Of a DNA stretch of 46,850 nucleotides, positions 17,893-46,483 are shown one piece after another. Origin of the DNA: an uncultured Prevotella sp. (GTDB lineage: Bacteria > Bacteroidota > Bacteroidia > Bacteroidales > Bacteroidaceae). Numbering within the stretch: position 1 is the stretch's first letter; the number at the start of each line of letters is the position of its first letter. Made by a program: the position numbers and the translations under genes. Under the pieces are notes generated by a model, which was not told the DNA's origin, did no database searches, and worked only from the letters and a program-made list of their open reading frames with translations. Location: NCBI GenBank assembly GCA_905210845.1, contig CAJLYG010000003.1, positions 1 to 46,850 on the forward strand, in the 5' to 3' direction.

Positions 17893-17945
17893 TGAATATT
17901 TTATTTACTAATTGTAGGAATAAAGTATGAATATCACAAGGCATG

Positions 17946-19031: not shown

Positions 19032-19058
19032 TATAATTAAATTAATAATATTGTTTGA

Positions 19059-21796: not shown

Positions 21797-21807
21797 AAGT
21801 CTTCTAT

Positions 21808-22212: not shown

Positions 22213-22213
22213 A

Positions 22214-23284: not shown

Positions 23285-23286
23285 GA

Positions 23287-24834: not shown

Positions 24835-24842
24835 CTAAAAGA

Positions 24843-25775: not shown

Positions 25776-25812
25776 TAGATAAATCGTTGTGTTAGAAAAG
25801 ATCGGCAAAGAC

Positions 25813-26435: not shown

Positions 26436-26628
26436 TCTTTCCTATATTAAGCCCTTACTTTACTATAATCTATTTTTTGATACATGATTTCTGTTAGACT
26501 TGAGAAATAAACCATTGAATACAACGTTCAGCCTTTGAAATCATTCGCCACAAATACCGCCAGTTTTTTCAGATACTCTTTTCAAACTTCAATTATTGGG
26601 GACCTTAGCAGAATTATCATTTCACCTA

Positions 26629-27740
26629 TTAAGTATATTTATTCTTTCTACCAGTTAGTAATTGGCAAATACGTGGGAAATGATTACTCAAAAAAACATA
26701 TATATAATAGCTAGCAATTGCTGTCGCCAACGGGATAAATAAATATAATGCTATTTTAAGCCATATTGAAGAATAAGAAATATGTAGGGTACTCAATATA
26801 ATCTCTATAGATTGAAGAATAAACATGTGAAATGCATATACGAAGAAAGAGCTATCGCCTAATTGCTTTGGAATACTCAAACCGTTCCTAGTGTATTTAA
26901 TAGTCAATCTAATTATTATCGCCATCATAATCAGGACAAATAACGGTTTAACCTGGCAGTAAAAATTTCGATGAGGATAATACAAAACCATTAGGACTAA
27001 GACTACTGGGAGAATTATATATGAAGCGATAGCATTAATGCATAATATAAATTTATCAGACGGACATTGAAAGATATCAGCAAGCAGAATCCCCCCCCTA
27101 AATTAAAGAAAAGTAAACTTTCTATACTTAATCCTGGTATTGGAGGCATAAGATTTAATAAATAACAAACTAATAATACACCCAGCAGACATCGACATAG
27201 AAATTTGTTCTTTATCAAAGGATAAAAAAATGGGGTTAAAACAACCATAACCATTAAGTCCCTAATGAACCAAAATGGCACATGAATAGGATAGGTGGAA
27301 TCGCGCATAGCCCAGAGCATCATTGGCTGGGTATAATCCTTTATCCAAAGGCATGCAGCCTGAAAACCTTCATGATGAAATATATGAAAGCCAGGTGGGA
27401 GAATATTAAATAGATAACGAACGATATTCCATATTAGATAAGGAATCATAAGTGTATAAAAACGACGATGGATCTTGCCTTTCCACACTTTCCAATTCCA
27501 TTTTTCTAAATTTTGATAGAACAGAAAACCTGATATTAAAAAAAATATTGGCACAGCTATTTGACATAGACCATACGAAATATAAACTCTAATGATATTA
27601 TAAAGACTATCAAATGTATAATAAGGAGATAATAGCTCATTTTCATTATTTATTTTAGCTCCAAAAAAGTGAACGTAAACGACCATAACCGCCAGGGGAA
27701 ACCTTAAATTGGAAATAGTTTTTGATATTATACTATCCAT
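26629..27740 (-). pseudogene. Membrane acyltransferase 3 (OafA/WecH-like), frameshifted at a G8 tract (OFF)
   Basis: The ATG at 27740 begins MDSIISKTISNLRFPLAVMV, with VYVHFFG and PIFFLISGFLFYQN helix motifs of acyltransferase family 3, then several hydrophobic segments. The frame is lost at eight G residues (27091-27098): as written it ends at 27015 with a non-family tail. With one extra G it reads LGGGILLADIFQCP and continues through MVLYYPHRNF to the stop at 26629, joining a separate open frame of 120 residues (26629-26991) that has the missing C-terminal helices. The restored protein is 370 residues, normal length. It would O-acylate the polysaccharide in the membrane. Confidence 0.85.
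27091..27098 (-). repeat. G8 homopolymer (candidate phase-variation tract)
   Basis: Eight G on the coding strand. Nine or six restore the full acyltransferase frame, seven gives an immediate stop. It is the second such tract, about 1.1 kb from the first and in the same operon. Confidence 0.75.
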
Positions 27741-30377: not shown

Positions 30378-30433
30378 ACCTTTTTGTTCTTAGATTTCTG
30401 ATAAAGACTTTTAAGTCTCCTTTTCTTTTCAAT

Positions 30434-31567
30434 TTATTTTGCATAATAGTACATACATAAACCTAATATTAGTTCATCACCAAATTGTAACGGATCTGTA
30501 TATCCGCTCTTTACAATTTGAAATATTTTTTGAGAAAAGTCATAAAATGTATCATTGGAATCGCTATCAGACAATTGCGCAATTGCATTTGAAATTTTTC
30601 CTTTAAGATATATCAATTCAGAGTTATTATAGTCATACAATAAACTTTGAATATTTTCCTTAATAACATGCAAAAATTTCCTTTTTTTATTAAAGCTTAC
30701 TCCTGACCTATCAAGTTGATTTGATATCTCATTGACAACAATTATAAAATCTTTGTTATCTGCAATTGATTTTATATGGCCTCTAAATGATTTACGTGTT
30801 ATAGATTTTCTATTTTCTAAGATATTATCTTCGGTAATAATGTCTTCTTTATTTTGCTTTCTTTCTATTTCATTAATTAAATGCTCGTAAAGGGTATCTA
30901 CTGAAATTGTTGCATCGGATAGATTCATATTACTTATGAATTCACCAATTAAGCCCTTTAAGGTTGGAATATACAAATCAGCTTTTACAGAGAGCTCATG
31001 TTGCTTAACAAAAAAATTATCAAAGGCTTTTTTATTAATATCAGGTAACTCCTTACAAATCTTGTCCTTTGCTATTTTTTGTTTATCCTTACTAAAATCA
31101 GCGAAATTTAGTTCATCGTCTTTTGGTCCTTTTTTCTCTTTTGCATTTCTATCATTGCTCTTCTTGTCAAATTGAGACTGAGGAAAATAAGAGTTCGTTA
31201 CAAAGTAATATCTTCTCGCATTATTAAAATCTATTGAATGTTTTAATAATTTACCAAGTATAGAATGAATTGTATTCTCATTCTTAGACATACTCGAAGA
31301 ACATAATTCAGACATGGTCCAAGTTGCACCATCTCTTGACTTTATTTGATAGAAATCAATATTTCTTTCTTTTATTGATTTATCAACCACTATAACATCT
31401 TCATGATAATCTAATATAATAGAAAAATCTTTCCCTTCCTTATCTAATTCCAGAAGCTTGTTTAATGCCCAATGCTTTTGATAACCAAACCGATTAGAAG
31501 CCATTGAGCCAGAATTTTCATCTGGCTTTTTATTAACTAATTCACGAATCGAACTTTCTTGTTCCAT
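30434..31567 (-). CDS. DUF4297/Cap4-type nuclease, LmuA-like
   Basis: A 377-residue protein whose N-terminus fits the DUF4297 (Cap4-type) endonuclease: FGYQKHWALNKLLEL, then ILDYHEDVIVVD with D57, then IDFYQIKSRDGATW with the Q74-x-K76 catalytic pair, a PD-(D/E)xK variant. The C-terminal half is helical and charged, lacking recognised domains, as in LmuA where it binds the ATPase. Together with the downstream Rad50-like gene the pair resembles a Lamassu-Cap4 system, in which the nuclease is held inactive by the SMC-like complex and degrades DNA when infection is sensed. It has no recognisable promoter; the upstream side is occupied by the decayed transposase. Confidence 0.72.
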   Translation of the reverse strand: MEQESSIRELVNKKPDENSGSMASNRFGYQKHWALNKLLELDKEGKDFSIILDYHEDVIVVDKSIKERNIDFYQIKSRDGATWTMSELCSSSMSKNENTIHSILGKLLKHSIDFNNARRYYFVTNSYFPQSQFDKKSNDRNAKEKKGPKDDELNFADFSKDKQKIAKDKICKELPDINKKAFDNFFVKQHELSVKADLYIPTLKGLIGEFISNMNLSDATISVDTLYEHLINEIERKQNKEDIITEDNILENRKSITRKSFRGHIKSIADNKDFIIVVNEISNQLDRSGVSFNKKRKFLHVIKENIQSLLYDYNNSELIYLKGKISNAIAQLSDSDSNDTFYDFSQKIFQIVKSGYTDPLQFGDELILGLCMYYYAK

Positions 31568-31669: not shown

Positions 31670-32760
31670 CTAAATACCCAAATAGTCAAAAAGAGGCTTT
31701 AATGACTGTTGGGCAGGGGTCAGCATCATTGTCTTGCTGATGATTTTGTTATTTAGTGGTAGTCTCAAGCGTATAGTTGTGATGGTTTTCGCAATTTTCA
31801 ATACAGCATCTACACTCCTTCCCATCTTTATCTCATGAATGATACGCTCAAGCTCCTTGTAGACCTTATATGCTATAAAGCACAAGCACACATGTGCCTC
31901 GATACGTCTTTCCGTGAAGTGAAATACTGGACGTGTCTCCAAGGTTCCTTTGGTTATCCGAAAGGCTCGTTCCACTACCCAAAGTCTATATTGAGAGACA
32001 ACCTCAGACGCTGGAATGTCGGTGTTGGTCACATAGCCTTTTAGACCGTCCCACATCTCGTCTTCTGCAATTTTCACCTCACTTATGCTTACCTTACATC
32101 GTTCTCAATTTTGAGAAACTTACTATATTCACGCTTGCTGATCTTGTCTTTGGTGATTCTGCCTGTAGCATATGCCTTACGAAGTCTCTCTATGCCCTTA
32201 TTGCGATTATAAGCATCCTTTGCAGCGCGCTTGGAACTGTAGGTTACTATGAGTCTGTCGCCATTGTCAAGCTTATGCTCATAAAATACGTTATCAACGT
32301 GTGCCAGTGTCTTTATCCATTCAAGGATATCACTTTTCTGCTTCTTGATTCTTCCTCCTACGATGAACTTGTAGCCACCATTTCGAAGCAATTCTATGTT
32401 TCGGCTGATCATGAAGCCAGAGTCGGCAACGACAATGAAGTCACCGAGGTTGAAGCACTGCTTGAAGTCATCTATTAGCGGTATCATGGTATAGCTCTCG
32501 TACTGAACTCCGTTGAATAACGAATATGACAAAGGATATCCGTTCTCGCATACCAGCAGACCCAAAATTATCTGAATCTCAGCAGTCTTTCCATCCTTGG
32601 AGAATCCAGGTGTGCGTAGTACATCTTCTTGAAAACACTCAAAATACAGCGATGTGACATCATAGAATAGCATCTCAACACGACCTCCCAAAACTGAGAA
32701 AGTGTGGTGTACACTTATCCTCTGAGCCAGTTCCTCATATTGTTTCGATTGATTCCAACA
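31670..32760 (-). pseudogene. Decayed IS1634-type transposase
   Basis: Two adjacent frames (32089-32691 and 31670-32077) give the C-terminal two thirds of an IS1634/IS4-type DDE transposase: GGRVEMLFYDVTSLYFE with the first catalytic D, FIVVADSGFMIS with the second, and WVVERAFRITKGTLETRPV with the glutamate region (YREK-like). They are out of phase; one added base near 32090 rejoins KIENDVR with SISEVKIAEDEMWDGLKGY, so a single deletion broke the gene. The frame is open upstream only to 32760 (YEELAQRISVHH), so about the first 200 residues are missing. No terminal inverted repeats were recognised. It is an old remnant between two defence genes. Confidence 0.8.
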
Positions 32761-32776
32761 TCATTTGCTAAAACTT

Positions 32777-33160
32777 TCATGGAAGTGATTCTGGCGAATA
32801 ATTAAGTATATCGTAGAGACAAAGTAATCGCCTGTTACTGGATTTTAATATATCTCTGCTAGCACACAGTCGTTTTAAATAATTTTTAGTAAATTCCAAG
32901 GGTATCTGACGTTTTCTAACGGCATAAAACACGGCTCCATCCTTATATGAACTACTAATGGAATCATCATTTAATATATCTTCAATACTTTGATGAGTAT
33001 TGGCTCTTGGTTGAACTTTACTTATATAATTTCTTATATTATTCACTTCATTTGATTTTAACCTCTCAATATCAGTTATTTCTTTACAAACAGTAGAAAA
33101 TCCAAACACAGGAAAATATTGATTGCTACTGATTTTTTGCTTATTTAACAGGGTAATCAT
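32777..33160 (-). pseudogene. 3' fragment of SIR2-domain gene, cut off by IS66
   Basis: A frame of 127 codons beginning MITLLNKQKISSN and ending in SPESLP at a TGA at 32777. It is the C-terminal part of the SIR2 gene. Its ATG lies within the left 8-bp target duplication of the IS66 element, and removing the IS plus one duplication fuses it in frame to the SIR2 part, giving KEANSAMITLLNKQ. On its own it has no recognisable domain; it is basic with a helical end (FTKNYLKRLCASRDILKSSN). It lacks a promoter unless the IS supplies one, so it is probably not functional. Confidence 0.75.
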
Positions 33161-33165: not shown

Positions 33166-34761
33166 GTAACTATTTAGCGGTAGTGTCCAGTCAATACTTT
33201 CTCTTCAAAAATCTTATAAAAGGCTATCATAAATCGCTTGTTTTTCTTGCGTATTTGAGATATTTTTTGTACCTTTATACCTATGAAAGAGCAAGTTACG
33301 GACATATCAAAAGTATTGCAAGACATGACGGAAGAGATGCGGCTGATGCGGGAAACCATCAATCAGCAGTATGCCGAGATTGTCAAATTGAACCGTAACA
33401 TAGATGCCCTGAATCTCCAAATCCGCAAGAAAGACAAAGAAATCGAGAAGTTGCTGGAGCGCTTGTCTAAGTATGAAAATCCTGACAAGAACTCTAACAA
33501 CAGCAGCACACCACCAAGCAAGGAGCGTATGGAGGATGAGATTGTCAGGCGGACGAGGACACTCCGTAAGCCAAGCGGTAGGAAGCCCGGAGGACAAAGC
33601 GGACATGAGGGGCACAAACTGTCTTGTTCTTCCATGCCGGACGTGGTGATTGATGACATACCCGGCTATTGCACCCGTTGCGGAGAATCTTTGGCGGATG
33701 CAGAACGTGTGCTTGATTATGTGACGCAGGTTGTTTCTATTCCAGAATTGAAGCCGGTAATCAAGGAAATCCGAAACTATGTGATGGTGTGCAAGAATTG
33801 CGGTGAACGTATTCGGACGGCACCGAGACGGCGGTCAAACGACGTGGTATATGATTCGAGCGTAAAGGCTCTGGTGGTTTACCTGAGTGTCGTACAGTTC
33901 CTGCCATACGGTCGTATAGCAAGTTTCTTGCGTGAGGTATTTGGTCTCACTCCGAGCGAAGGCTCGCTGGTGAACTGGGTGAATGAGGCAAAGAGAAATG
34001 CGCAGCCTGTTATTGACAAGATTAAGGAATATATCATGTCATCAGCAGTTGTCGGTTTCGATGAGAGCGGCTTGTACTGCAACAAAAAGCTCGACTGGGC
34101 TTGGATAGCACAGACCGTTTATTACACACTGCTTTTCCGTGCTGACGGAAGAGGCTCGAAGGTGTTGACAGACAAGTTTGGTGACAGCCTGGAACGGATG
34201 ACTGCCGTGACGGACCGCCATAGTGCGTACTTTACACTCCACTTCCTCAATCATCAGGTCTGCCTTGCACACTTGCTTCGCGAACTGCAATATCTCTCAG
34301 AGTTGAACACCGGGCAAGACTGGTCCAAAAAAGTAACCAATCTGTTCCGTGAGGCCATTCACGAAAGGAATACCAATCCGAGCAACATTATAGACAAGGT
34401 GTCATGGACCCGGCGTTTGGACAATCTGCTCAAACAGAATATAGACCGGCTTGGTCAAAAGTTCATTACGTTCAAAAAGGGCTTGGTCAAATGCAGAGAC
34501 TACATTTTCAGTTTTCTTGAAAATCCGATGATACCATCAGACAATAATGGAAGCGAGCGGGGAATACGCAAACTGAAAATCAAACTGAAGAACTCCTGCA
34601 CGTTTCGTTCAGACTTCGGGGCGGACGCTTTCCTCGAACTTCATTCGGTCGTTGAAACAGCCAAGAAGCACAACAAAACTCCTTATCATGCAATTCAAGC
34701 CTTATTTGAGGCTTGATGAATTGGCATATTCTGTACCTAACGATTATCGCTGAATAGTTAC
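33166..34761 (+). mobile_element. IS66-family insertion sequence, single transposase gene
   Basis: A 1596-bp element. Its ends are imperfect inverted repeats starting with GTAA, as usual for IS66: left GTAACTATTTAGCG and right (reverse complement) GTAACTATTCAGCG, 13 of 14 identical. The flanks are the perfect 8-bp duplication CATAGCTG. It carries only the transposase gene on the plus strand and no TnpA or TnpB accessory genes, like the compact IS66 elements of Bacteroidota. It interrupts a minus-strand SIR2 gene in the opposite orientation. Confidence 0.92.
33283..34716 (+). CDS. IS66 family transposase (TnpC)
   Basis: A 477-residue IS66 transposase. Order of domains: an N-terminal coiled coil (residues 20-70, leucine-zipper-like), the IS66 DNA-binding linker with NSNNSSTPPSKE and GRKPGGQSGHEGHKL, a zinc-finger-like region (CTRCGESL, CKNCGERI), and a DDE catalytic domain with D260 in VVGFDESG, D311 in VTDRHSAYF and E425 in NGSERGIRKLKIK. 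Complete and without frameshift, so the element is probably still active. The C-terminus FEA ends 45 bases before the right IS end. Its start is 117 bases from the left IS end, where a promoter is expected. Confidence 0.95.
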   Translation: MKEQVTDISKVLQDMTEEMRLMRETINQQYAEIVKLNRNIDALNLQIRKKDKEIEKLLERLSKYENPDKNSNNSSTPPSKERMEDEIVRRTRTLRKPSGRKPGGQSGHEGHKLSCSSMPDVVIDDIPGYCTRCGESLADAERVLDYVTQVVSIPELKPVIKEIRNYVMVCKNCGERIRTAPRRRSNDVVYDSSVKALVVYLSVVQFLPYGRIASFLREVFGLTPSEGSLVNWVNEAKRNAQPVIDKIKEYIMSSAVVGFDESGLYCNKKLDWAWIAQTVYYTLLFRADGRGSKVLTDKFGDSLERMTAVTDRHSAYFTLHFLNHQVCLAHLLRELQYLSELNTGQDWSKKVTNLFREAIHERNTNPSNIIDKVSWTRRLDNLLKQNIDRLGQKFITFKKGLVKCRDYIFSFLENPMIPSDNNGSERGIRKLKIKLKNSCTFRSDFGADAFLELHSVVETAKKHNKTPYHAIQALFEA

Positions 34762-35898
34762 CATAGCTGAATTTGCCTCCTTTATAAGCCGGAAGTAATT
34801 CTGGATCATTTCGTTAGTGTTCATAAAGTTGTAGGAAAGTGTATTGTCCGTACCAATAGCTAGTATCCTGTCCCCATTTTCCATTTCATCATAGCTAGCT
34901 ATGACAACTTTGATTGATCCACCTGAGTAGATATCTTTAACAACATTTTGAACCTTCCGTATGTCTAGTGCACTTACAGGTAATACTAAATCAGACAAAG
35001 CATTGTAAATCGCAATGTAATTATCAGTTGAAATTTTGTTAATCCTTATCGTGCCAGGAATCTCATTTATATCTATATCATGCTCTGATATGTCAAGATT
35101 TGTAGAGCCTTCGGAATATTCCACTAATAGAAAGTTCTTTCTTATTTTCTTTGCTAGTTCTGTATTTGGATCTACATAAGTAAAAATGGTTTTCAACAAG
35201 CTTTTGATGTTCTCGTCCTGAATGGAATAACCAAGAAAAATAATAGGATTGTTAATAAAGAGAGATAAAAGTTGTGCTCGAATCAACTCATACTTACTGT
35301 CAAATCGATCATAATCTTCTTTCGTTATGATAATGTCCCCGGGATAGTCGTAGCTTCCATGAATTTTATAAACAGAACCATAGGGATTACTCAATAAAAT
35401 GTTATTGCCTATCAATGGAGTGAACTCAAAGACTTTCTCTATAAGATTATCGTAATTTGTGGTAATGACAGATCCAACATTCTTTCTGACCTTTGTAAAC
35501 ACTTCTATTTCATCTTTTTTCTCATCCCGATAATGCATGTCTTTAAAGAGACTTGAAATATAAATTTTGAAACGACTTAGTTTCTTTTCTGCAGCCATAT
35601 TCTCATAGAAAATGTCATTCACTTCCTTGAATTTCCCGTTTCTATTATTCTCTGCGTATTCATTAAAATCTGCTTCTAATAGAGAACCAAGTTTAGGGTA
35701 ATTACAAATATTGTTAGAATCCGTACACTTTGATTTCAAGTCGAGGTAATACTCTGGATCACCATTGTATTCATTACATATTTTCGAGAGTAGACCATCC
35801 CATGTGTAGGAATTGTCAAAGTAACGCAATGACAATCCAGTGCCTATGAATAGGACAGGATAGGTTTTAAAGTTTGCTACGAAATCATTAATGTTCAT
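34744..35898 (-). pseudogene. SIR2-domain defence effector, 5' part (disrupted by IS66)
   Basis: The N-terminal part, 379 genuine residues, of an originally 505-residue protein. It has the SIR2 NADase core: VLFIGTGLSLRYF (GTG-S at 19-23), SVITTNYDNLIEK (146-151), KIHGS with H180, and IFLGYS around 221-225. SIR2-domain proteins in defence systems hydrolyse NAD+ and stop growth on phage infection. The frame now runs 5 residues into the IS66 end (VTIQR) and stops at 34744. Whether the truncated protein works is unclear; the NADase domain itself is complete, but the lost C-terminal quarter may be the sensor. A promoter lies about 200 bases upstream. Confidence 0.85.
34762..34769. repeat. Right 8-bp target site duplication of IS66 (CATAGCTG)
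   Basis: Identical to 33158-33165, immediately outside the right inverted repeat of the IS66 element, and the first codons of the disrupted part of the SIR2 gene. Confidence 0.9.
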
Positions 35899-36184: not shown

Positions 36185-37495
36185 TTAATTTAAAATTTGC
36201 GAATCACTTGCATTTCTCGACAGTTTTTTGATTTCTTCCTCTTTATCATGTATTGTAGGATCGTCGGGGAATAATTTAATGAACATAGTATCATAGAAGA
36301 TTTTTTTTCCCACATTGGACATGGGATAAGTCTTAACGTCTAATACATTTATGTCTTTTATGCTTTTCATGTAAGAGTCAAAACATCCCGGAACGAATTC
36401 TATAGAACTGTTTCTGTCAAGAATGTCTGACAATATATTAATCATTGCATTATAACCTACAGTTGACTGAAGGATGTTTGACGGTTTTGATAAACCATTA
36501 TACTCCCACGCTTTAGAGAAAGAGTTCCTTATTGAATTGAAGAAGTAGTACATACAATCGGCAATTTTATTATCTTCATCATTAGCATAAAACTGACGGA
36601 AAGGCAACTTTTTTGTAGAGGTACACATCATTAGTTCTTTTCTCTTCATATATCTGTTTCTCTCAGCCTCTGCGGAATTAGCGCTTATTAGTGAAACTAT
36701 AGATTTAACCATTGTAGCTTGTGACAAAGGAGGACTCATTTGCGATTCATATGTTCCCCCATAGAGTTTTATCCTATTATAAAACGGAGAACCTTTATGT
36801 CCATTAAGTGCAAGGGCTATCTCCAAGGCAGTCTTATATGGAGAATCAGAAGTTGTGATTCCGAACAAGCTGTACACTAAGTCTTGAGAAACTCTTTTTT
36901 GAGTTCTGTTAATGGTTGAGAATATCATTGCTTGATATTCAAGAGTCTTGTCTATGAAACAAGATATAACAAGCTCCATGTTGTTCAAACCATCTAATTT
37001 TGAACACCACTCTTCTCTCATTCCTTTATAATCAATATTAATGTATTCCTTCAAACGATCTATTGCCAGTTCAATGCCACGTATGCGGTGCTGACCATCT
37101 ATTATTGAAACAAAAATGTCTGCATTTTCAACACCTTCTCTCTTAGCTTTTGCTATCTGCTCAACAACAGCATCCTTAAAGCCAATAAACAACAGCCCTC
37201 CAGGAATTTGCTTTTGTGACTCAATTACGTTTTGTGGAATATTCAATATTATGTTAGTTGGAAATGTCGGAGAATCGTCAAAGATGAGAAAATCTGCTAT
37301 TTTTTTTGCCCGACTATTATCTACTTTACGCTGAACATTTTTATTATATAGAGGTTTCCCCTCTTCATCATATCCAACTATTAATCTTTCTGTAAATTTT
37401 GTATATTCAAGGACTTCTCTTACAGTAGCTTTACCTATAACAAAATCTTGTCCGTTTTGGTAAACGGGAATACCAGTAATTCCTATATGTGACAT
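36185..37495 (-). CDS. DGQHR-domain protein, DndB-like
   Basis: A 436-residue member of the DGQHR family with the defining motif VSIIDGQHRIRGIELAI (D133-R137), DndB-type. The N-terminus (GITGIPVYQNGQDFVIGK) and the RKVDNSRAKKIADFL segment are also family-typical. DndB is a negative regulator or accessory of DNA phosphorothioate modification in known Dnd systems. It is the last gene of the minus-strand operon with DndC, D and E, 1 base after the membrane-protein stop. DGQHR proteins also occur outside Dnd loci, but the linkage here leaves little doubt of a Dnd role. Full length. Confidence 0.85.
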   Translation of the reverse strand: MSHIGITGIPVYQNGQDFVIGKATVREVLEYTKFTERLIVGYDEEGKPLYNKNVQRKVDNSRAKKIADFLIFDDSPTFPTNIILNIPQNVIESQKQIPGGLLFIGFKDAVVEQIAKAKREGVENADIFVSIIDGQHRIRGIELAIDRLKEYINIDYKGMREEWCSKLDGLNNMELVISCFIDKTLEYQAMIFSTINRTQKRVSQDLVYSLFGITTSDSPYKTALEIALALNGHKGSPFYNRIKLYGGTYESQMSPPLSQATMVKSIVSLISANSAEAERNRYMKRKELMMCTSTKKLPFRQFYANDEDNKIADCMYYFFNSIRNSFSKAWEYNGLSKPSNILQSTVGYNAMINILSDILDRNSSIEFVPGCFDSYMKSIKDINVLDVKTYPMSNVGKKIFYDTMFIKLFPDDPTIHDKEEEIKKLSRNASDSQILN

Positions 37496-37496
37496 A

Positions 37497-37958
37497 TTAT
37501 TTCCAATTTTTAGTTATTTTTTTAACTTTATTCTCGACATCATGGTTGAAATCATCATCATCGAGTTTAATATTATCATTATTTTCAATTTTCCACAACA
37601 AGATTGCTTCTATTAGTAAGATAAATCCTGGTATCAGCGGATAATTTTGATAGAACATCAAAAATAAGATGATATCTATAACGAGCAAGGTAGTTTGAAA
37701 AAGTTTCCAACTTGGCTTATTTTTAAATTCCAAGAACGATAAGGACAGAGAATAGTAGGAAGGTCCAATGATAGCAATAGAGAATGTAATTAAATTATCC
37801 GGGAAATTCAACTTCCCGTTAGAAATATCTTTAATGAAAGGAATCCACACACCTGCGCCTCCAATTACAAATACATACACGATGAAATACCAGTAAAAAC
37901 TTACTGATTTATGCTCCGTTATTTTATCTTTTAATTCTTTTAAAAAGCTTACATCCAT
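37497..37958 (-). CDS. Small membrane protein inside the Dnd operon
   Basis: A 153-residue protein of unknown function. Four hydrophobic segments are visible: FYWYFIVYVFVIGGAGVWIP, LITFSIAIIGPSYYSLSLSF, FQTTLLVIDIILFLMF and PLIPGFILLIEAILLW, with an acidic C-terminal tail (DNIKLDDDDFNHDVE). No known Dnd component is an integral membrane protein of this size. It overlaps the dndE gene by 10 bases and lies 1 base before the dndB-like gene, so it is firmly part of the operon. It may anchor the complex or act as a membrane effector upon sensing; both are inference. Confidence 0.75.
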   Translation of the reverse strand: MDVSFLKELKDKITEHKSVSFYWYFIVYVFVIGGAGVWIPFIKDISNGKLNFPDNLITFSIAIIGPSYYSLSLSFLEFKNKPSWKLFQTTLLVIDIILFLMFYQNYPLIPGFILLIEAILLWKIENNDNIKLDDDDFNHDVENKVKKITKNWK

Positions 37959-38377
37959 ATTTTATTAAGCCCTCCTTTTATTTTGTATACTAAGTAATCA
38001 AATCCTATAAGATTCGGATTGACTTTGACATCAGATGCTATCATCTCCAGTCCATCATCAAGGTGTAACTTGAAGTATTTGGGAATATCTTTATCTGACG
38101 ACTTGATATTATAAAGTGTGCAGATCATTGCCTCATATATGCTATAATAGTTACCGAAGAGAATCTTCTTAGAATATTCCTTTCCACCAGAATCCTTAAC
38201 ATCAGAAATTTTCAATTTATGACCAGACCCCATGGAATATGTTAATGCAATACGAGCAATAACATTCTCTGCACCAAGCCCAAACTTACGAGTAAGATTG
38301 GTGACGACATCTTTATTTCCTTTACTTGTTTTGATTGATGAGAACATGCTTTTGTATTTTTGTAATAGTTGAACCAT
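37949..38377 (-). CDS. dndE: DNA sulfur modification protein DndE
   Basis: A 142-residue protein. LTRKFGLGAENVIARIALTYSM is the conserved DndE core; the rest is helical and basic, consistent with the known tetrameric nicked-DNA-binding protein that acts with DndC and DndD in the phosphorothioate-transferring complex. The ORF overlaps the end of dndD by 56 bases; an internal ATG at 38347 (MFSSIKTSKG) reduces the overlap to 26 bases and is a plausible alternative start. It is longer than some DndE proteins (about 110-125 residues), with a C-terminal extension from about residue 95. Confidence 0.85.
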   Translation of the reverse strand: MVQLLQKYKSMFSSIKTSKGNKDVVTNLTRKFGLGAENVIARIALTYSMGSGHKLKISDVKDSGGKEYSKKILFGNYYSIYEAMICTLYNIKSSDKDIPKYFKLHLDDGLEMIASDVKVNPNLIGFDYLVYKIKGGLNKIWM

Positions 38378-40373
38378 CTATTGAGTTGATTATCTCATAC
38401 TGTTGGTTTATTATAGGCTCAAGCCATTCGTATTCGGTTTCAGTTAACTCTTTTTTAGCAATAGGGAATAATACTACCTGTTTCGATATCTGTGGGTAGA
38501 AATCTTTGATTATAGTCTGCGTATGCCTCTCATCAAACTTTTGAAGAGGGCTGTCTATGAAAACAGGGAATTCAATACCAGACTCTTCAACAAGTGCTTG
38601 CAAAAAAGCAGAAGCATACAATTGTTGTTCACCTTTTGACAAAGAATTTTTTCTTATTTCTTCTCCATCTTTACCCATCAGAATGACATTGAGCATATTG
38701 CCGTCATCTTCAATTCTAACATCCTTCACAAATTCTTGTTTATGCATGAGGTTGTTAAGGCTGTTTCTTATTTTGTTACCCAAAGAAGCCCTCTTATCTA
38801 ATTTGAGAGACTTCAAAAAAGTTTCTAACTCTTTTATAAGTTGATCGGCAAGAATGTCCTTCTTTGTATCTCTTTCAAGGGCCTTTACTTTATACTCATA
38901 CTTCTTAGCCGCTTCATGGTTCTTATCTAACTGGGCTTGTAAAGAGCCAATCTCTTGATTTATAACGGCAATTTCTTGACTACGATTTTCCATTTCTATA
39001 TAAAGATTCTCAGTTTTCAACTTGAGCTCCTTTATAAGAACATCGCTCTCTTCAACTTGCGCCTGACGAATTCTCCGGTTTAGTTTTTCAATTTTTATTT
39101 TATTTTGTCTGTAATCTTCTATCAAGTTATTAAGTTCAACTTGATATGTCCCTTTCAGATAATGATATACAGCCAGAAATTCATCATAATCCTCTTTACT
39201 GATATTCAGTTGCGTATCATCATTAATTGCATCTCCGGCATATTGTTGCAAGATATCACTTATTCCATCCTTTAAAGTCTTTTTGTAAAAGCTTTCTAAA
39301 GGCGCATTATCGAGGTAATTAATTATTGAAAACTTGATTTTATCAACAATTTCATTCTGCTTTTCAAAATTGTCCTTTGATAAGGCAACTTTATAGTCAT
39401 GTTCCACAATAGATTTGGATTGTGAAAGTAACGAGCCAGCAATGGCAAGTGGAGCGAGCTCCAAAAAGCCATTTAACTTTTTCTTTAAATGTATATTATA
39501 AGCTTCACAATTGGCACGTTCCTTTTGTGCCCTGCTTAGTTCATCTACAGAAACATTGCTACCTTCCTTTAGGAGATTTATGGAGACTGCGTTATATTCT
39601 TCTCTTAAAGAAGCTAGACTTTCATTCGTTTCTGATAACATAACTTTTTTATCATGAAGTTTAAACTCTAAGTCTCTGATTGATTCTTTTAGCAGATTAA
39701 ACTTTTGAAGTTCTTCCTCAGATAGTGCAGCCTTTGTGTACTTTTGTCTCAGATTAAGAAGATTAAATCGTAAATCCTCGTATTTTTTGACTCCAAGGAC
39801 TTGATTATATGCATTACTAAGCCGGATCTTCTCATTAACAGATTGATCCTCTACAATTTTTACGACATGTTCAGAGTCGAAGAAAAAAAGTCTAGCAATG
39901 TCTTTGTTAAGGATGAAGTCATTAATGAAAAGATCATATCCTATCTGTTTTGCAAGTTCATTTTCATGACCATCTATATTGACCTCTATATTCTCTCTCT
40001 TTAAATTATAATCGTATGATCTTCTTACAAGAAGTGACTTACATGGCACCGAAGGTATAGATACACCTTCAAATTCAATTTGCACGCTATATTTTTTACT
40101 CTTTCCTTCATCAAACGCAACGGAGTGGTTGAGGTTAGAATCTAAGTATGCTTTGTACCCATTCTCTCCGATCCCTTTCTTAGCAGATTCATCAATGTCA
40201 ATAATCATCTTACCATATAGACACCAAAGTAAGGCATGAAGGAATGTAGTCTTACCAAAGCCGTTCTCTCCAAAAATCAAAATGACATTCTTCTGGTCTG
40301 TCACATCGAAGTTCAACGAGACATCTCCTTTATAGATTCTGAAATTATACAGACTTATGTTCCTAATTATCAT
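38322..40373 (-). CDS. dndD: DNA sulfur modification protein DndD (SMC-like ATPase)
   Basis: A 683-residue ATPase. Walker A is GENGFGKTT at residues 35-43 (IFGENGFGKTTFLHALLWCLYGK), then long coiled-coil arms of about residues 190-530, then the ABC signature LSKGEQQLYAS and Walker B PVFIDSPLQKFDERHT with a terminal VVLFPI strand. The layout is that of DndD, which provides ATPase activity during sulfur insertion and probably nicks or unwinds DNA with DndE. The start overlaps dndC by 4 bases (ATGA), showing tight coupling. Full length. Confidence 0.93.
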   Translation of the reverse strand: MIIRNISLYNFRIYKGDVSLNFDVTDQKNVILIFGENGFGKTTFLHALLWCLYGKMIIDIDESAKKGIGENGYKAYLDSNLNHSVAFDEGKSKKYSVQIEFEGVSIPSVPCKSLLVRRSYDYNLKRENIEVNIDGHENELAKQIGYDLFINDFILNKDIARLFFFDSEHVVKIVEDQSVNEKIRLSNAYNQVLGVKKYEDLRFNLLNLRQKYTKAALSEEELQKFNLLKESIRDLEFKLHDKKVMLSETNESLASLREEYNAVSINLLKEGSNVSVDELSRAQKERANCEAYNIHLKKKLNGFLELAPLAIAGSLLSQSKSIVEHDYKVALSKDNFEKQNEIVDKIKFSIINYLDNAPLESFYKKTLKDGISDILQQYAGDAINDDTQLNISKEDYDEFLAVYHYLKGTYQVELNNLIEDYRQNKIKIEKLNRRIRQAQVEESDVLIKELKLKTENLYIEMENRSQEIAVINQEIGSLQAQLDKNHEAAKKYEYKVKALERDTKKDILADQLIKELETFLKSLKLDKRASLGNKIRNSLNNLMHKQEFVKDVRIEDDGNMLNVILMGKDGEEIRKNSLSKGEQQLYASAFLQALVEESGIEFPVFIDSPLQKFDERHTQTIIKDFYPQISKQVVLFPIAKKELTETEYEWLEPIINQQYEIINSIDGSTITKIQKHVLINQNK

Positions 40374-41707
40374 TTTCTTCCCTCCAAAAACAAATCAAGC
40401 TGATGTTCTATGTCGTTTTGGAGACCATACTTACGCATCATCAGATTTTTTGATTTTTGCAAAGCTAATAATTCTTCTATCAGCTGATAGTGACCCTTTT
40501 CTCTACAACTTTTTTCTAATAGCAGACGCTCATCAAGTGGAATTTGGTCATTGGGAATATCATAACCATACACATCATTATATATATCGTTCACAGTAGG
40601 AGCGAAATAGCCATCTCGATACCATATAATCTGAATAGCCATCAATTCTTGCTGACTTATTAACTCTATACTGCCACGGTGCTCCTGTATTTGTTTTTGG
40701 ACTTCCAATAATTCTTTCAGGACCTGTTGACGATATTCTATGGTGTAATTTCCTAGATTATGTCCTGTATCATCAACTGCCTTTTGGTTATTACGTCGAC
40801 GGTCACGTCTGTATTCTGACTTGTTCCTATTCTCAACAAGCCGATTCCTGAATTCCAACAACGGCCGCATCCATTTGACACCATTATTAATTAATGAAGT
40901 CATAGATTTATCTTCAGCAACAACGGTGCAAACCCAACAGCCAAATCGGCTTTGCCCACAAGACCTTTGTTTGGTGCTGGTCATCATTGTAGGACATTCG
41001 TAATCATCGGCTGACGCATCTTTATAGATATTGAATAGCACATTGTTATCAAATTCCCATGGGCTTGGAATTATCTGTATTATCCACCAAATTTCCTCTA
41101 ACATCAAATCCTTAATGGGTGAATATATATATGTGTTTGGATTTAATGGATGCTTAGATAATCTGTGACCTTTTATCTCATGTTTATCTATAGACTTAGC
41201 ACGTTGTGCGCTTTCACCACGCCGGGTACCGATAAGCACAACAGCCTCGCCATCTAAAGTTACCCTATCCTCAATGAATTTAGAAGTTGGCTTTATCTTC
41301 ATTTTCTCAGTACAAAAGCGGAAAGTATTGTTTGGAACCGGATATCCCTTTCCTATGACCAGACACCAGAAACTGTCTTCTAGTTCTGGTAGAGTCTTAT
41401 AAACCTTTATGGGCATTGCCTGCTTTTTAGCTGCATCCTCTATCTTCTTGAGAACTTCTTGTACATATTCCTCAATTACAGGATTTTCCACCATCGTGTC
41501 GTTACAGACAACGTATACACGTCTGGTCAAGTCTTTGCCTTGCATTCGAAGTTGCTGAAGGGCTAGCCATGTCAACGTGAGGAGTACAGTGGAATCTTTA
41601 CCTCCTGAAAAACCTATTATCCAAGGTCGGTTATATCTATCCTTTTCAAGATATTGCTCGGCTATTTCATCTATCACTGCTTGTATATGCTTTGGAAGTT
41701 TTCTCAT
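40370..41707 (-). CDS. dndC: DNA sulfur modification protein DndC (PAPS reductase-like)
   Basis: A 445-residue ATP pyrophosphatase with the PP-loop SGGKDST at residues 34-40 and an iron-sulfur cysteine set: ECPTMM, then SCGQSRFGCWVCT, matching the [4Fe-4S] site of DndC. Between them, KGHRLSKHPLNP and YSPIKDLMLEEIWW are typical of DndC. It would adenylate the DNA backbone or hold sulfur delivered by a cysteine desulfurase. No dndA gene is present, so a chromosomal IscS-type enzyme probably supplies sulfur, as known in other Dnd loci. It overlaps its neighbours on both sides by 4 bases. Full length and intact. Confidence 0.94.
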   Translation of the reverse strand: MRKLPKHIQAVIDEIAEQYLEKDRYNRPWIIGFSGGKDSTVLLTLTWLALQQLRMQGKDLTRRVYVVCNDTMVENPVIEEYVQEVLKKIEDAAKKQAMPIKVYKTLPELEDSFWCLVIGKGYPVPNNTFRFCTEKMKIKPTSKFIEDRVTLDGEAVVLIGTRRGESAQRAKSIDKHEIKGHRLSKHPLNPNTYIYSPIKDLMLEEIWWIIQIIPSPWEFDNNVLFNIYKDASADDYECPTMMTSTKQRSCGQSRFGCWVCTVVAEDKSMTSLINNGVKWMRPLLEFRNRLVENRNKSEYRRDRRRNNQKAVDDTGHNLGNYTIEYRQQVLKELLEVQKQIQEHRGSIELISQQELMAIQIIWYRDGYFAPTVNDIYNDVYGYDIPNDQIPLDERLLLEKSCREKGHYQLIEELLALQKSKNLMMRKYGLQNDIEHQLDLFLEGRK

Positions 41708-42639
41708 AACCTTACGTCGAAGTAGTTAGGAATATACTTATAAAACTTTTTGTAATTTTCGTATTCCTTTTGTTTAATAATTGACTTATTAATTAACTCA
41801 TGATTTATTGCATCCTCATCTGTAATGGAGTGATTAATACATGACATTTCCCGAAGTGTAAAGTTTGGAATGCAAATTTCAAGAACTCCATCAGTATTAA
41901 TAAAAGGAAAATCATTTAATTGTAAATCTGTAATTGACATCTCATTCGATAGAACGATCCCACCATATGTGATCATTGGGGCTTTATTATCTACATAAGT
42001 GAAATTATATAATTTTTGGAACTTAACTTGATCTCCAAGTTTATTTCTTTTTTCTATTATTCTATTACATTCATCTCCAATGATACGAGAAACCGTAGTT
42101 GGTGCCTTCTTTTCTGCGCAACAATTTTCTGGAAGGTTAAAGGGTACCAAATCTCGAAATTTGTCTGTTAATTCAGAAAGCGACATCGTTTCATTCTCTT
42201 CATTTTTAAGTAAGCTATTGCATGACATTACATATATACTTCCAACAGGAACATTTTGGAGTACTAAATTTAAATCATCAAACATTAAAGGATCTAATCT
42301 ATTATCATAATCAAGCCAGATAATTGTTGGTTTAGTCAAATCTAGCCTTGTCAATACGTTAGTAGACTCACCTTGCTCGATTTGTATCTGTGCGTAACGT
42401 TTATTGAATTCCAATTTATCTTTGGTATACATTTTCTCAATACTATGAAGCTCTTCTATATTGAGTTCCTTATGAATCAATTTAAAGTCAGTAAATGCTA
42501 TACCACCAAAACCTACATATTGGTATTTTTGCTTAAAATATCCCATGATACGAGCCAATGAAGAGATAAACATTCTTCTTTCTACAAATTTGTTAGGCCT
42601 TAATTCATAATTAATATTATTAGTACTCTTCATCCTCAA
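41704..42639 (-). CDS. Rossmann-like (methyltransferase-like) protein of Dnd-linked pair
   Basis: A 311-residue protein not matching a known Dnd component. YVGFGGIAFTDFKLIHKELNI followed by ELHSIEKMY has the glycine-rich turn and acidic strand end of a SAM- or nucleotide-binding Rossmann fold; TIIWLDYDNRLDPLMFDDL would be the next strand with D-Y-D acidic residues, and SIYVMSCNSLL the fifth. It therefore looks like a class I methyltransferase-type fold, but catalytic motifs of DNA methylases (DPPY, NPPY) are absent. It overlaps the GHKL ATPase by 20 bases and dndC by 4 bases. It may be a substrate-binding or nucleotide-using subunit; the function is unknown. Confidence 0.6.
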   Translation of the reverse strand: MRMKSTNNINYELRPNKFVERRMFISSLARIMGYFKQKYQYVGFGGIAFTDFKLIHKELNIEELHSIEKMYTKDKLEFNKRYAQIQIEQGESTNVLTRLDLTKPTIIWLDYDNRLDPLMFDDLNLVLQNVPVGSIYVMSCNSLLKNEENETMSLSELTDKFRDLVPFNLPENCCAEKKAPTTVSRIIGDECNRIIEKRNKLGDQVKFQKLYNFTYVDNKAPMITYGGIVLSNEMSITDLQLNDFPFINTDGVLEICIPNFTLREMSCINHSITDEDAINHELINKSIIKQKEYENYKKFYKYIPNYFDVRL

Positions 42640-43981
42640 TGCACTCTAATTTTATGTAATAATTAAAAGTCTTTTCACCAAGCTCCTTATATGATCTAGC
42701 TCCAGAATGCTCAAGAGCAGCGTCCGCAATGTCTTTGCTCACAGTATATGATATTCTACGTGTATTTTCTTTAACTACGGGATTATCCTTATCTATCTTT
42801 GGCGCATAAAATTTTCCTCTTTCCTGATTAGAAAAGTCCTTCATTTTGAGTTGTACAGCACTGTATGCATGTAAACTTTCTCCTAATTGCTTGCGGTAAT
42901 CATTAGCATATGCACCTAAATTGTCTATTTCATTTAGAAAAACATTTACTCTTCTCATGGCATCTTGCATCAAAGGCAATACAGCCTGATAAATATTTGA
43001 AGTAACATCTATACCTTTCTTGGTTGTAGTCAAAGGCAATTTAATAGTGTCAGGACTATCTAAGAAAAGCAGACCTCTAAACATAGCATGTTTAACTGCC
43101 CATTGGGGTAATCCATTCATATGCCAACCGGTTATTGTTGACTGATCTGCCTCGACAACAAGTCGATTGTTACAATATATATACCAACCAGACTCCTTAG
43201 GATGTCCTGTTACCCCTATGCCCGCAATTATTTTATAAGACACTCCGCCAATATTACCATCTTTAAAGTATGGCATAATTTTGTATTCTTGAGACATCAA
43301 CAGTTCCACCTTATTTCCAACTAGAGACTTGCCATTCAAAATAATATTCATTTTACGCGCAAGACTAAAGTTTAAAATTCGCTGAATATCTGTGGATAAA
43401 TCCGTTAAGAAATGTTCATCATTAAAAAGATTCTCAAGCTCTTCGTTAAGTTTCTCAACCTTTATATAAGTACCATCAACGCGCAAGCCTTCCTGGTCAG
43501 TTATATTAATATACGAGAAGTTCCAATCATCAATCTGTTGCCCGTTATTGTCACAAATTGTTTGTTTACTCCATTGTTCTACGTCAACATCAACCTTAAA
43601 ATGATTTTCCTTGTGTTTGCTTTCAACTGAAAAATGTTTACCCATTTTAAAGAGGGACCGCTTCATCCCGATACCGAATCTGCCAACCGAATTATTCAAC
43701 TTCGGTGTCACATCATCAGGCCTTCCAAATCGAAATGCATACTTTTGAGCTGTTTCAAGAGAGAATCCTCCACAATTATCTTCTATTATGAATTCGTCCT
43801 TGTTCAATGTTAACTTTACATACAGGCTTTCAAAGGTAGAATCTTTATCTGGGTGCAATCGGTTTGCGCCATCTATCGAATTATCGATTAAGTCAATAAT
43901 AGCATCTTCTATAGATATATCACGAGTTATCATATCTATGAAGAATTTCTTCGTTGGTCTTCCCTGTATAATGTTAGTCAT
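42620..43981 (-). CDS. GHKL (MORC/Hsp90-like) ATPase heading the Dnd operon
   Basis: A 453-residue ATPase of the GHKL type (HATPase_c_3, MORC-like). N-box DLIDNSIDGA at residues 30-39 (N34), G1 box IEDNCGGFS (D68), G2 box VGRFGIGMKRSLFKMG at 99-114, and an N-terminal MTNIIQGRPTKKFFIDMI cap. The C-terminal 150 residues form a helical region (QAVLPLMQDAMRRVNVFLNEI). It is the first gene of the minus-strand seven-gene operon, overlapping the Rossmann-like gene by 20 bases. GHKL ATPases clamp DNA or client proteins on ATP binding, so it is a candidate sensor or restriction motor. No such protein is a known part of Dnd, Ssp or DptFGH systems. Confidence 0.82.
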   Translation of the reverse strand: MTNIIQGRPTKKFFIDMITRDISIEDAIIDLIDNSIDGANRLHPDKDSTFESLYVKLTLNKDEFIIEDNCGGFSLETAQKYAFRFGRPDDVTPKLNNSVGRFGIGMKRSLFKMGKHFSVESKHKENHFKVDVDVEQWSKQTICDNNGQQIDDWNFSYINITDQEGLRVDGTYIKVEKLNEELENLFNDEHFLTDLSTDIQRILNFSLARKMNIILNGKSLVGNKVELLMSQEYKIMPYFKDGNIGGVSYKIIAGIGVTGHPKESGWYIYCNNRLVVEADQSTITGWHMNGLPQWAVKHAMFRGLLFLDSPDTIKLPLTTTKKGIDVTSNIYQAVLPLMQDAMRRVNVFLNEIDNLGAYANDYRKQLGESLHAYSAVQLKMKDFSNQERGKFYAPKIDKDNPVVKENTRRISYTVSKDIADAALEHSGARSYKELGEKTFNYYIKLECIEDEEY

Positions 43982-44524: not shown

Positions 44525-45913
44525 TTAATCGATCATATAGCGTTCATTGATTTCCCCTAACTCCAATAATTTGTCAAACTGTTGGTCGGTAAGCTTAAAG
44601 AATCCCCAATAATTGGCATAAATCCCTGCCTTTTCCTTCATGTCTTTATTGATGACTTTCTTGCTGAAAGCTATATTGTAGAGCATCTTGATGACGATGA
44701 AGTTTGGCTTCATACGATACCACCTCCTCAAGTCTGCTTCCGAAAAAACAGAATATTTGTTCGTGTATTTGACATAGGCATCCTCGTCTTTGAAATCGTT
44801 ATAAGATTTTATCTGACAAATGGTGCAAACTGACGTGCATGCGCTTCTGTAAGCTGCTGGCCCCTTATTGTCGTTTGTCCTATAGATAACTACCTTGTCG
44901 CCTGGTACAAGCACCTTGGCTTCTTTCATCCAACAGATATAAATCTTGTAGATGCTATTGGTTTCTGAAACGTCCTGGATGATGTCATATTTGGCTTCAT
45001 TCTTGATAATCGAGTCTGGGAACAGCTTTGTGTGATATTCGGGTATGATGGAGAACACATATTTGTTTCCTGCCCTTTTTACAAAAGGATAATCAAGTAG
45101 GAAATTATTCGCCATCGCCCTCATATTCTTTACAAGGACATATTCCGCCTTGCCTCCTATATGTTGCTTATCGGCGACATGGTAAAATCCGAAATATTCA
45201 AACATCAAGATTCGCTTCTTCGATGATTCTGTCGGGAATATTGTCACATAGATTTCTTCTACATCCTTTTCTATGGCTACATCCATGATTTTCTTCATGA
45301 ATCTTTCACCTCGTGTCGTATGCAGGGTTTCATTATCGATCTCGAAGGTCCCAACTTTCAGGCGTTTTTTCTTGGGCAATACTGGCGTTACATCTGTCAG
45401 CTCTTCGTCTTCTATTTTAAGATATAGGAAGTCTTTTAGTTGCCCATTAATAAAATAGGTATAGGCAGTTGCTCCTGCCTCTGACTTTTTCTTAAACCAT
45501 GCATCAAACTCTGGATAATTTTCTCTCTGCGAATCAAAGAATGGATCCGCAATATTGATTTCAGAGAATTTCCGTATCTGCAAAAAGGTATTCGTGGCAA
45601 ACGATTGTAGCAATGTACCCGTAGGTCTGAATGGATAAGGTATTTCATGAAGATATCCTTGATTCAGTGCTCTTTCACCGACAATATCTTCGCATATCAA
45701 TTGGGCATTGGAGGCAATGGTATTCGTTCCTCCAAATATGTTGAAGATGGTCGGACTTTGCTTTTCTCTTATTTCATCTATCCATCGATGATATTCCTGA
45801 GGCATGATCTTCCGTAGAAGACAATGCAAACGGGAGATGTCAGCATGGCTATTCTCATTTATGAATTCCTGTGCCTTTTGTATCTGGTACAGGAAGATGT
45901 CTTCGGGCATCAT
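44525..45913 (-). CDS. GNAT-like and PUA/EVE-like domain protein with FNIxGG motif
   Basis: A 462-residue protein of unknown function. Residues 54-72 hold SPTIFNIFGGTNTIASNAQ, a motif also present in the neighbouring small protein. The middle has LKVGTFEIDNETLHTTRGER and FMKKIMDVAIEKDVEEIYVT, then FEYFGFYHV, matching a GNAT acetyltransferase core, and the C-terminal part (VPGDKVVIYRTN, SVCTICQIKSYNDFKDED, then VFSEADLRRWYRMKPNFIVIKML) looks like a PUA/EVE/ASCH-type beta barrel. GNAT+PUA proteins occur in defence and toxin contexts. The start is MMPEDIF at 45913 or the second ATG. It is preceded by the 22-bp tandem repeats. Confidence 0.6.
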   Translation of the reverse strand: MMPEDIFLYQIQKAQEFINENSHADISRLHCLLRKIMPQEYHRWIDEIREKQSPTIFNIFGGTNTIASNAQLICEDIVGERALNQGYLHEIPYPFRPTGTLLQSFATNTFLQIRKFSEINIADPFFDSQRENYPEFDAWFKKKSEAGATAYTYFINGQLKDFLYLKIEDEELTDVTPVLPKKKRLKVGTFEIDNETLHTTRGERFMKKIMDVAIEKDVEEIYVTIFPTESSKKRILMFEYFGFYHVADKQHIGGKAEYVLVKNMRAMANNFLLDYPFVKRAGNKYVFSIIPEYHTKLFPDSIIKNEAKYDIIQDVSETNSIYKIYICWMKEAKVLVPGDKVVIYRTNDNKGPAAYRSACTSVCTICQIKSYNDFKDEDAYVKYTNKYSVFSEADLRRWYRMKPNFIVIKMLYNIAFSKKVINKDMKEKAGIYANYWGFFKLTDQQFDKLLELGEINERYMID

Positions 45914-45929
45914 AACCGATGAGAATTTT

Positions 45930-46017
45930 ATATATTGGATACTTTTCTGTCTATCTTAGCATACTTGCCTCAGTATCTTAGCATACTTGGCAATGTATCT
46001 TATGGTACTTCTTGGAA
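45930..46017. repeat. Three to four tandem 22-bp repeats upstream of the GNAT-like gene
   Basis: Units TATCTTAGCATACTTGCCTC+AG at 45952-45973, a close second copy at 45974-45995, a diverged third at 45996-46017 and a weak fourth at 45930-45951. They fill the gap between the two FNIxGG genes and end 17 bases from the ATG at 45913. Iteron-like, so an operator array or regulatory RNA element is possible. Confidence 0.7.
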
Positions 46018-46030
46018 TAGCGAACGACTA

Positions 46031-46483
46031 CTACCGCAAGCTGCTTTTGACGGCTTTCTTTCGGGCTACCCATGCATTGTTGATCGCTACACGGATATTG
46101 TCGATAGTCCTACCTTGCTTCCAAGATGGAACAAACGGAAGTAGCAGCTCTATGAAACGCTGCTTGACGATGATGTCCGCCGTCACACGAGGCTCTTTTT
46201 GACAGATCGTGACAACAACCTCTCCCAAATCTCTTGCACAACGACAGGAGGCGAGTTGGGTGACATAGGCTTTGAGGTCTTCTGCATGATCTATATAAAT
46301 AGACAATGCTTCCTTCTCTTTCTCAAGCGCGCCTGTAAGGTTGGTGTCCACGGACTCATTGGCTGATGCGGAGCATTCTTGGTTACAAAAGTTCTGTACT
46401 GCTTGTGTGGCATTGGGGAGGATTTTGTTATTTCCCCCATAGATGTTAAATGTCACACTTAATGGTTTTTCTTGTGCTTTCAT
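46031..46483 (-). CDS. Small protein with FNIxGG motif, unknown function
   Basis: A 150-residue protein, which I do not recognise. Near the N-terminus SVTFNIYGGNNKILPNATQAV (residues 9-29 region) repeats the motif of the neighbouring 462-residue protein, and the remainder is helical (EKEKEALSIYIDHAEDLKAYV, DIIVKQRFIELLLPFV). Shared short N-terminal motifs in adjacent genes of different domain content often mark a common binding partner or adaptor domain, similar to effector-associated domains; this is inference. It is upstream of the GNAT-like gene in the same direction, separated by 117 bases containing the tandem repeats. The gene is divergent from the HU-like gene. Confidence 0.6.
   Translation of the reverse strand: MKAQEKPLSVTFNIYGGNNKILPNATQAVQNFCNQECSASANESVDTNLTGALEKEKEALSIYIDHAEDLKAYVTQLASCRCARDLGEVVVTICQKEPRVTADIIVKQRFIELLLPFVPSWKQGRTIDNIRVAINNAWVARKKAVKSSLR

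Follow-up and report, generated by a model that had tools for sequence, protein, structure and literature searches.

A MORC-type ATPase and its predicted methyltransferase-fold partner head a Dnd operon in an uncultured Prevotella sp.

Dnd phosphorothioation (PT) systems are described as DndBCDE together with DndFGH, DndI, or PbeABCD (PMC10853773, PMC11662687), and DndI illustrates the existence of single-protein PT-sensing arms (PMC11662687). A survey of Dnd neighbourhoods lists HKD, HNH, REase, URI, HEPN, and PIN nucleases (PMC10853773); the terms GHKL, HATPase, MORC, MutL, Hsp90, and GyrB are absent from its main text. MORC ATPases were placed in restriction-modification systems with cytosine methylases and Vsr by Iyer et al. 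in 2008 (PMC2292703), and in the open-licence literature we found no paper linking MORC or GHKL ATPases to Dnd, co-mentions, where checked, being confined to reference lists. Here we analyze a 46,850-nucleotide (nt) stretch of DNA from an uncultured Prevotella sp. (assembly GCA_905210845.1, contig CAJLYG010000003.1, positions 1 to 46,850; hereafter the window), in which a seven-gene operon encodes DndC, DndD, and DndE behind a MORC-type GHKL ATPase and a protein of family PF20553. As in the known Dnd systems, DndC, DndD, DndE, and a DGQHR/DndB-like protein share one operon (PMC10853773, PMC11662687), but there is no DndH-sized gene, and the MORC-PF20553 pair heads the operon. Our best reading of what is new here is the joining of Dnd modification to a MORC-type restriction-modification arm, MORC proteins in restriction systems having been known since 2008.

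The GHKL and PF20553 genes travel together as a unit, as a preliminary description of this locus had proposed. The loci carrying the pair, 60 from genomes and seven from viral contigs, were fetched via relatives of the window's own protein, which biases their sampling. The GHKL gene was detected by tblastn in 65 of these 67 loci, and a GHKL gene of more than 300 residues adjoins PF20553 in 65 of the 69 rows of our trees, the other four being fragments or contig ends. The rows omit L022 (a duplicate of L001), L105 (the same stretch as L003), L046 (whose PF20553 frame is split), and L101 to L104. With open reading frames (ORFs) extended to the earliest start available, overlaps were found in 60 of the 68 adjacent pairs, and the gaps ranged from -134 to +73 nt. 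GHKL and PF20553 protein distances correlated with r = 0.92 across 65 loci, and GHKL and DndC distances with r = 0.87 across 22 Dnd loci; in neither case did any of 2000 permutations reach as high.

Clustering of the neighbours resolved two main contexts for the pair, DndCDE or a C5-cytosine methylase, the latter sometimes with Vsr. By context label, the 69 rows comprise Dnd (33), C5-cytosine methylase (27, including all seven viral-contig loci), N4/N6 methylase (2), DISARM (1), and none (6), and no locus among them holds both DndC and a C5 methylase. Three of the Dnd labels are manual assignments, that of L052, in which dndC lies just beyond the locus end, and those of L004 and L018, in which dndC is on another contig of the same genome; the Dnd count is 30 without them. 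The pair recurs with DndCDE in many lineages, and the window belongs to a well-supported 20-row set in which 19 rows are Dnd. The Dnd label requires four changes on the PF20553 tree and five on the GHKL tree, with at least three context changes forced by well-supported branches in both.

Phylum-wide samples contained PF20553 in 4 of 395 genomes (the phylum of Bacteroides), 5 of 398 (Altererythrobacter), and 3 of 299 (Desulfosporosinus), with the centre genome counted in each case. At all nine non-centre loci the GHKL gene adjoins PF20553 and a DNA methylase is nearby: a C5 enzyme at L114, L115, L116, L118, and L119, an adjacent N4/N6 enzyme at L091 and L092, a DISARM system at L090, and at the ninth, L117, an N4/N6 methylase on the opposite strand at a distance of about 4 kb. 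Dnd genes were found at none of the nine. The order in the DISARM operon (L090:401-15680) is DrmMI, GHKL, PF20553, DrmA, DrmB, and DrmC, followed by a 653-residue GHKL protein and Vsr; the pair thus sits between DrmMI and DrmA, whereas the window operon has no drm genes. The pair is more general than phosphorothioation and serves several self-marks. The earlier proposal of an arm specific to PT is not upheld by these samples, in which homologues of the pair occur mostly without dnd genes, the very distribution that had been named as speaking against it.

In the window, seven minus-strand ORFs occupy the interval from 43981 to 36185 and follow one another with overlaps or end to end:

42620..43981, minus strand: MORC-family GHKL ATPase, 453 residues, first gene of the operon (PF13589, 56.2 bits; cut-off 25)
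41704..42639, minus strand: PF20553 (Methyltransf_35) protein, 311 residues (Pfam, 293 bits; cut-off 27)
40370..41707, minus strand: DndC, phosphorothioation sulfurtransferase, 445 residues (TIGR03183, 410.6 bits; cut-off 290.4)
38322..40373, minus strand: DndD, ABC-type ATPase, 683 residues (TIGR03185, 260.4 bits; cut-off 245.85)
37949..38377, minus strand: DndE, 142 residues (PF08870, 90.1 bits; cut-off 25)
37497..37958, minus strand: small membrane protein, 153 residues, hydrophobic at about residues 19-45 and 83-126
36185..37495, minus strand: DGQHR/DndB-like protein, 436 residues (TIGR03187, 129.2 bits, cut-off 58.85; PF14072 DndB, 42.1 bits, cut-off 29.1)

The overlaps, in operon order, are 14-20, 4, 4, 56, and 10 nt, and the last junction is a 1-nt gap; the likely start of the PF20553 protein is the ATG at 42633, which matches the start position of most aligned relatives. 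Coordinates and family scans agree with the seven co-directional genes previously reported at 36185..43981, and the DndCDE and DGQHR assignments made then match family profiles, with DndC and DndD above the NCBIfam cut-offs and DndE above that of Pfam only (58.5 bits for TIGR03184, below the NCBIfam cut-off of 71.85). In PADLOC the top model for DndD was PbeC at 356 bits, DndD being second at 289. In NCBIfam the DGQHR/DndB-like protein scored 133.9 bits for TIGR04172, below its cut-off of 450. From these profile matches the operon is predicted to mark host DNA with sulphur. DndA is not among its seven genes; IscS is able to stand in for DndA in other systems (PMC11662687). The 153-residue membrane protein has no family in Pfam, PADLOC, or NCBIfam, and promoter and terminator scans of the operon region returned nothing above chance. 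Relatives of the membrane protein (26%, E = 0.003, a weak match) and of the DGQHR protein (28%, E = 2e-28) are encoded next to each other where another dnd operon ends (L101:3-1501). Small ORFs of L012 and L098, considered as further relatives of the membrane protein, have low hydropathy and gave no match.

The two leading genes had been described as an unassigned GHKL ATPase and a Rossmann-like protein. Both genes are real, but neither is without a class: the second belongs to PF20553, and the first is of the MORC type, a more specific assignment than GHKL ATPase. MORC, MutL, and Hsp90 relatives are ATP-gated dimers. In the window protein an S5-type domain follows the GHKL domain and the overall MORC fold is present; its ATP-binding motifs are intact, and residues D33, N34, D37, D68, G72, G105, K107, and K321 are invariant in 55 relatives. 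The MORC signature, defined as GhXhhpXXRhl (PMC2292703), lies at residues 265-275 (GWYIYCNNRLV); it is found in 61 of 65 pair loci, in 119 of the 120 homologues listed, and in 5 of 1414 other ORFs. The matches listed for the protein include MORC2-DNA structures. Its C-terminus consists of two helices with conserved I410, G435, and F439. DndE is described as two ribbon-helix-helix domains (PMC10853773), and such a domain at the GHKL C-terminus was considered but is unsupported, the profile comparison with DndE giving a probability of 0.3% and eight control families 0.1-0.5%.

Several described systems share part of this architecture. The MORC ATPases of prokaryotic restriction-modification systems have the same GHKL and S5 ATPase, the same signature, and neighbourhoods with cytosine methylases and Vsr, but their main neighbours are given as helicases and nucleases (PMC2292703), whereas the window has DndCDE marking and PF20553 is the constant partner. 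VcSduA (GHKL-Shedu, paraMORC3; PMC12137116) also uses a GHKL ATPase module in anti-phage defence, but as one protein with a C-terminal nuclease domain; a Pfam scan of the window GHKL protein gave PF13589 alone at E <= 0.1, with no such domain (DUF4263). HATPase_c_3 pairs beside C5 methylases were described in 2021, the HEF_HK/Response_reg_2 system likewise comprising an HATPase_c_3 protein and a dedicated partner near C5 methylases, Vsr, and HNH_2 (PMC8011034). The solved chains of eukaryotic MORC3 and MORC4 include a CW zinc finger, which Pfam does not find in the window protein, and unlike eukaryotic MORC2, MORC3, and MORC4 the latter is paired with a methyltransferase-fold protein. The HEF_HK/Response_reg_2 system differs by its domains: neither PF19191, which we take to be a domain of that system, nor PF19192 was matched in either pair protein at E <= 0.1. 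The window GHKL protein also stands apart from MzaB of the MZA system, scoring 27.3 bits for NF041932 against a cut-off of 850; MzaB was its only PADLOC match, and a weak one (23.8 bits), while the GHKL proteins of L028 and L049 were unmatched there.

Two related GHKL proteins, of about 460 and 580 residues, occur in each of two C5 loci (L041:8604-14161 and L049:6399-10017), the MORC signature being present in the longer ones. Another type of GHKL protein next to Dnd genes is found in L099 (4967-10930), where DndC, DndD, and DndE are followed by a 556-residue protein of another GHKL subfamily that retains the signature; L099 also encodes a 188-residue protein just below the GIY-YIG cut-off.

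All 70 aligned relatives of the partner protein match PF20553. Its structure model (predicted local distance difference test score, 93.7) matches class I S-adenosylmethionine (SAM) methyltransferases, the best structural match being Trm1, a tRNA methyltransferase, and SAM-site residues G43, G45, E68, D110, Y111, and D112 are conserved. On this modelled structure, the protein appears to have a class I SAM-methyltransferase fold with a conserved SAM site. A profile search of the PDB gave nothing significant (best E 2.5), and PADLOC had no match for the protein of the window or of L028. Relatives were recovered in the genome scan with an alignment (A1) as query, whereas a single PF20553 sequence recovered none; a plasmid search returned two distant matches, both below 80% query coverage.

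The absence of DndH and SspE from the window, noted previously, agrees with ORF length, since no ORF, DndD being the longest at 683 residues, has the size of DndH (DptH) or SspE, models for DndF and DndG not having been run on every ORF. The preliminary description further placed the pair in lieu of known restriction genes and looked to its co-occurrence with dndCDE where dndFGH is missing. DndC was sought in 49 genomes from 50 of the 60 loci (omitted were L002, L022, L027, L030, L034, L046, L051, L054, L056, and L060, and also the genome of L059) and was above cut-off in 32. DptH was found in 5 of 52 pair genomes, once below the family cut-off; all five are DndC-positive, so that DptH is absent from 27 of the 32. 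In four of the five, one contig carries DptH, dndC, and the pair, and in the fifth, the genome of L047, the pair is beside a C5 methylase. At Bacteroidota dndC loci without the pair, a DptH-sized ORF is present in one of eight (L094; G264 is outside this set), so absence of DptH is common there regardless. The expected association with dndCDE is thus borne out (33 of 69 rows), as in most genomes is the lack of DptH, but missing DndFGH as proof of a replacement is weakened both by the four loci that have the pair and DptH and by the pair-less loci.

No modelled nuclease is constant across the pair loci, where counts cover modelled families only and many loci end at contig ends or at the 10-kb flank. 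The 33 Dnd loci include an Mrr-type nuclease in 8, a PLD-helicase (PbeA-like) in 11, a PbeC-like ATPase in 11, DndA in 13, and DptH inside the locus in 2; none of Mrr, PLD-helicase, or DptH is present in 16 of them, or in 14 once two with DptH farther along the contig are removed. Among the 27 C5 loci, Vsr occurs in 9 and HNH_2 in 2 (both also with Vsr), leaving 18 without any modelled nuclease; of the five phylum-wide C5 loci, two (L115 and L116) have HNH_2 next to the pair. Vsr was considered as a common restriction nuclease and rejected, being in none of the 33 Dnd loci, and its distribution would fit repair of deaminated 5-methylcytosine better than a shared restriction step. In 14 of the 33 Dnd loci, among them L001, L009, L010, L013, and L019, DndE is fused to a HerA/FtsK-like ATPase.

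The MORC and PF20553 genes are the sole genes found in common among the sulphur, 5-methylcytosine, N4/N6, and DISARM contexts, and they are therefore likely to carry a shared discriminating or effector step. We give an even chance to the reading in which the MORC protein and its methyltransferase-fold partner make up an effector module that works with any mark and is coupled here to DndCDE phosphorothioation. Such a module may act by entrapping, silencing, or aiding cleavage of unmarked, invading DNA. With ATP, a MORC dimer would close around DNA; marked DNA would release it or keep it away, leaving unmarked DNA trapped; the trapped DNA might then be silenced or passed to whichever nuclease the locus or genome provides. 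A SAM-dependent action of the PF20553 protein could be directed at the trapped DNA or at RNA or protein attached to that DNA. The DGQHR and membrane proteins might regulate marking or position the complex. If this is correct, a MORC-type arm joins DndFGH, DndI, PbeABCD, and SspE/SspFGH among the partners of phosphorothioation, and one module is swapped between chemically different self-marks, which would allow asking how one effector distinguishes DNA with the mark from DNA without it and would offer a tractable bacterial setting for MORC ATPase action on DNA. A bolder version, which we hold to be doubtful, has the MORC protein and its methyltransferase-fold partner as a portable silencing arm that clamps and compacts any DNA lacking the tag, be it sulphur or a base methyl group, and that works in phosphorothioation systems without cutting; it would parallel, in prokaryotes, the silencing of transposons and viruses by eukaryotic MORC proteins.

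A number of observations weigh against the effector module. The GHKL proteins of the two N4/N6 loci both lack the strict MORC signature (0 of 2), and Foldseek ranks Hsp90/TRAP1 above MORC by E-value for the GHKL model. The window holds no nuclease of the modelled families. Among 395 sampled Bacteroidota genomes the pair is present in one of ten that are DndC-positive, the centre genome only, and Dnd therefore does not depend on it; together with the lack of Dnd genes at the non-centre loci, this makes the Dnd-linked pair a minority on both sides, yet a recurrent one. Full restriction genes stand beside the pair in some of the 33 Dnd loci (DptH in 4, PLD-helicase in 11, Mrr in 8), and in one locus the pair is within a full DISARM system, so the pair may be accessory. 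The conserved SAM-site residues, finally, are also compatible with a second modification in place of an effector.

This last point bears on what we judge an unlikely but the best-surviving alternative, that the pair is part of the marking machinery: PF20553 would add a second mark, such as a DNA methyl group, the MORC protein would load or scan for the modification enzymes, and other genes would restrict. The retention of residues predicted to belong to an active methyltransferase, the position of the pair beside marking enzymes in all nine phylum-wide loci, and GHKL distances that track those of DndC are consistent with it. Yet the marks that one pair serves differ widely, and every one of them has a complete marking enzyme of its own; a protein with Trm1 as its top structural match and no significant PDB profile match is also unlikely to be a simple DNA methylase. 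Less likely still is an accessory role, in which DndFGH or another PT-dependent nuclease elsewhere in the genome cleaves and the MORC-PF20553 pair only tunes; the four Dnd loci where DptH shares a contig with the pair, and those with PLD-helicase or Mrr, point this way, but DptH is absent in most DndC-positive pair genomes and two-thirds of the C5 loci are without any modelled nuclease. We consider it highly improbable that the pair senses infection in an abortive defence whose killer is encoded by the SIR2-like gene at 34744-35898: that gene is 286 bp downstream of the operon (PADLOC PDC-S25, 427 bits) and in L024 a different SIR2_2 protein is encoded immediately upstream of GHKL (L024:1449-2720), but the window SIR2 protein is unmatched at E 1e-4 in all 67 pair loci, the PDC-S25 model matches the SIR2 protein by itself, and no constant effector of the SIR2 kind stands beside the pair.

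With the effector module still the preferred reading of the pair, the surroundings of the operon can be described briefly. The SIR2-like gene, on the minus strand, is its downstream neighbour, and beyond it lies a Lamassu-type pair identified by PADLOC (28698-31567, minus strand; LmuB 28698-30377, LmuA 30434-31567), which places the operon in a defence island. Between the SIR2 gene and the Lamassu pair are an IS66 transposase gene (33283-34716, plus strand) and three minus-strand ORFs (31670-33160) that resemble pieces of one broken transposase and are putatively so assigned. Upstream of the operon and on the same strand, the region 44525-46483 encodes a 462-residue protein that matches the EVE domain weakly (17.1 bits; cut-off 23) and a 150-residue ORF that shares a short stretch with it (50% over 22 residues, E 0.5-1.6). 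The defence genes adjoin a region (16648-27740) with polysaccharide-type domains, namely glycosyl transferase, pyruvyl transferase, Polysacc_synt, and acyltransferase.

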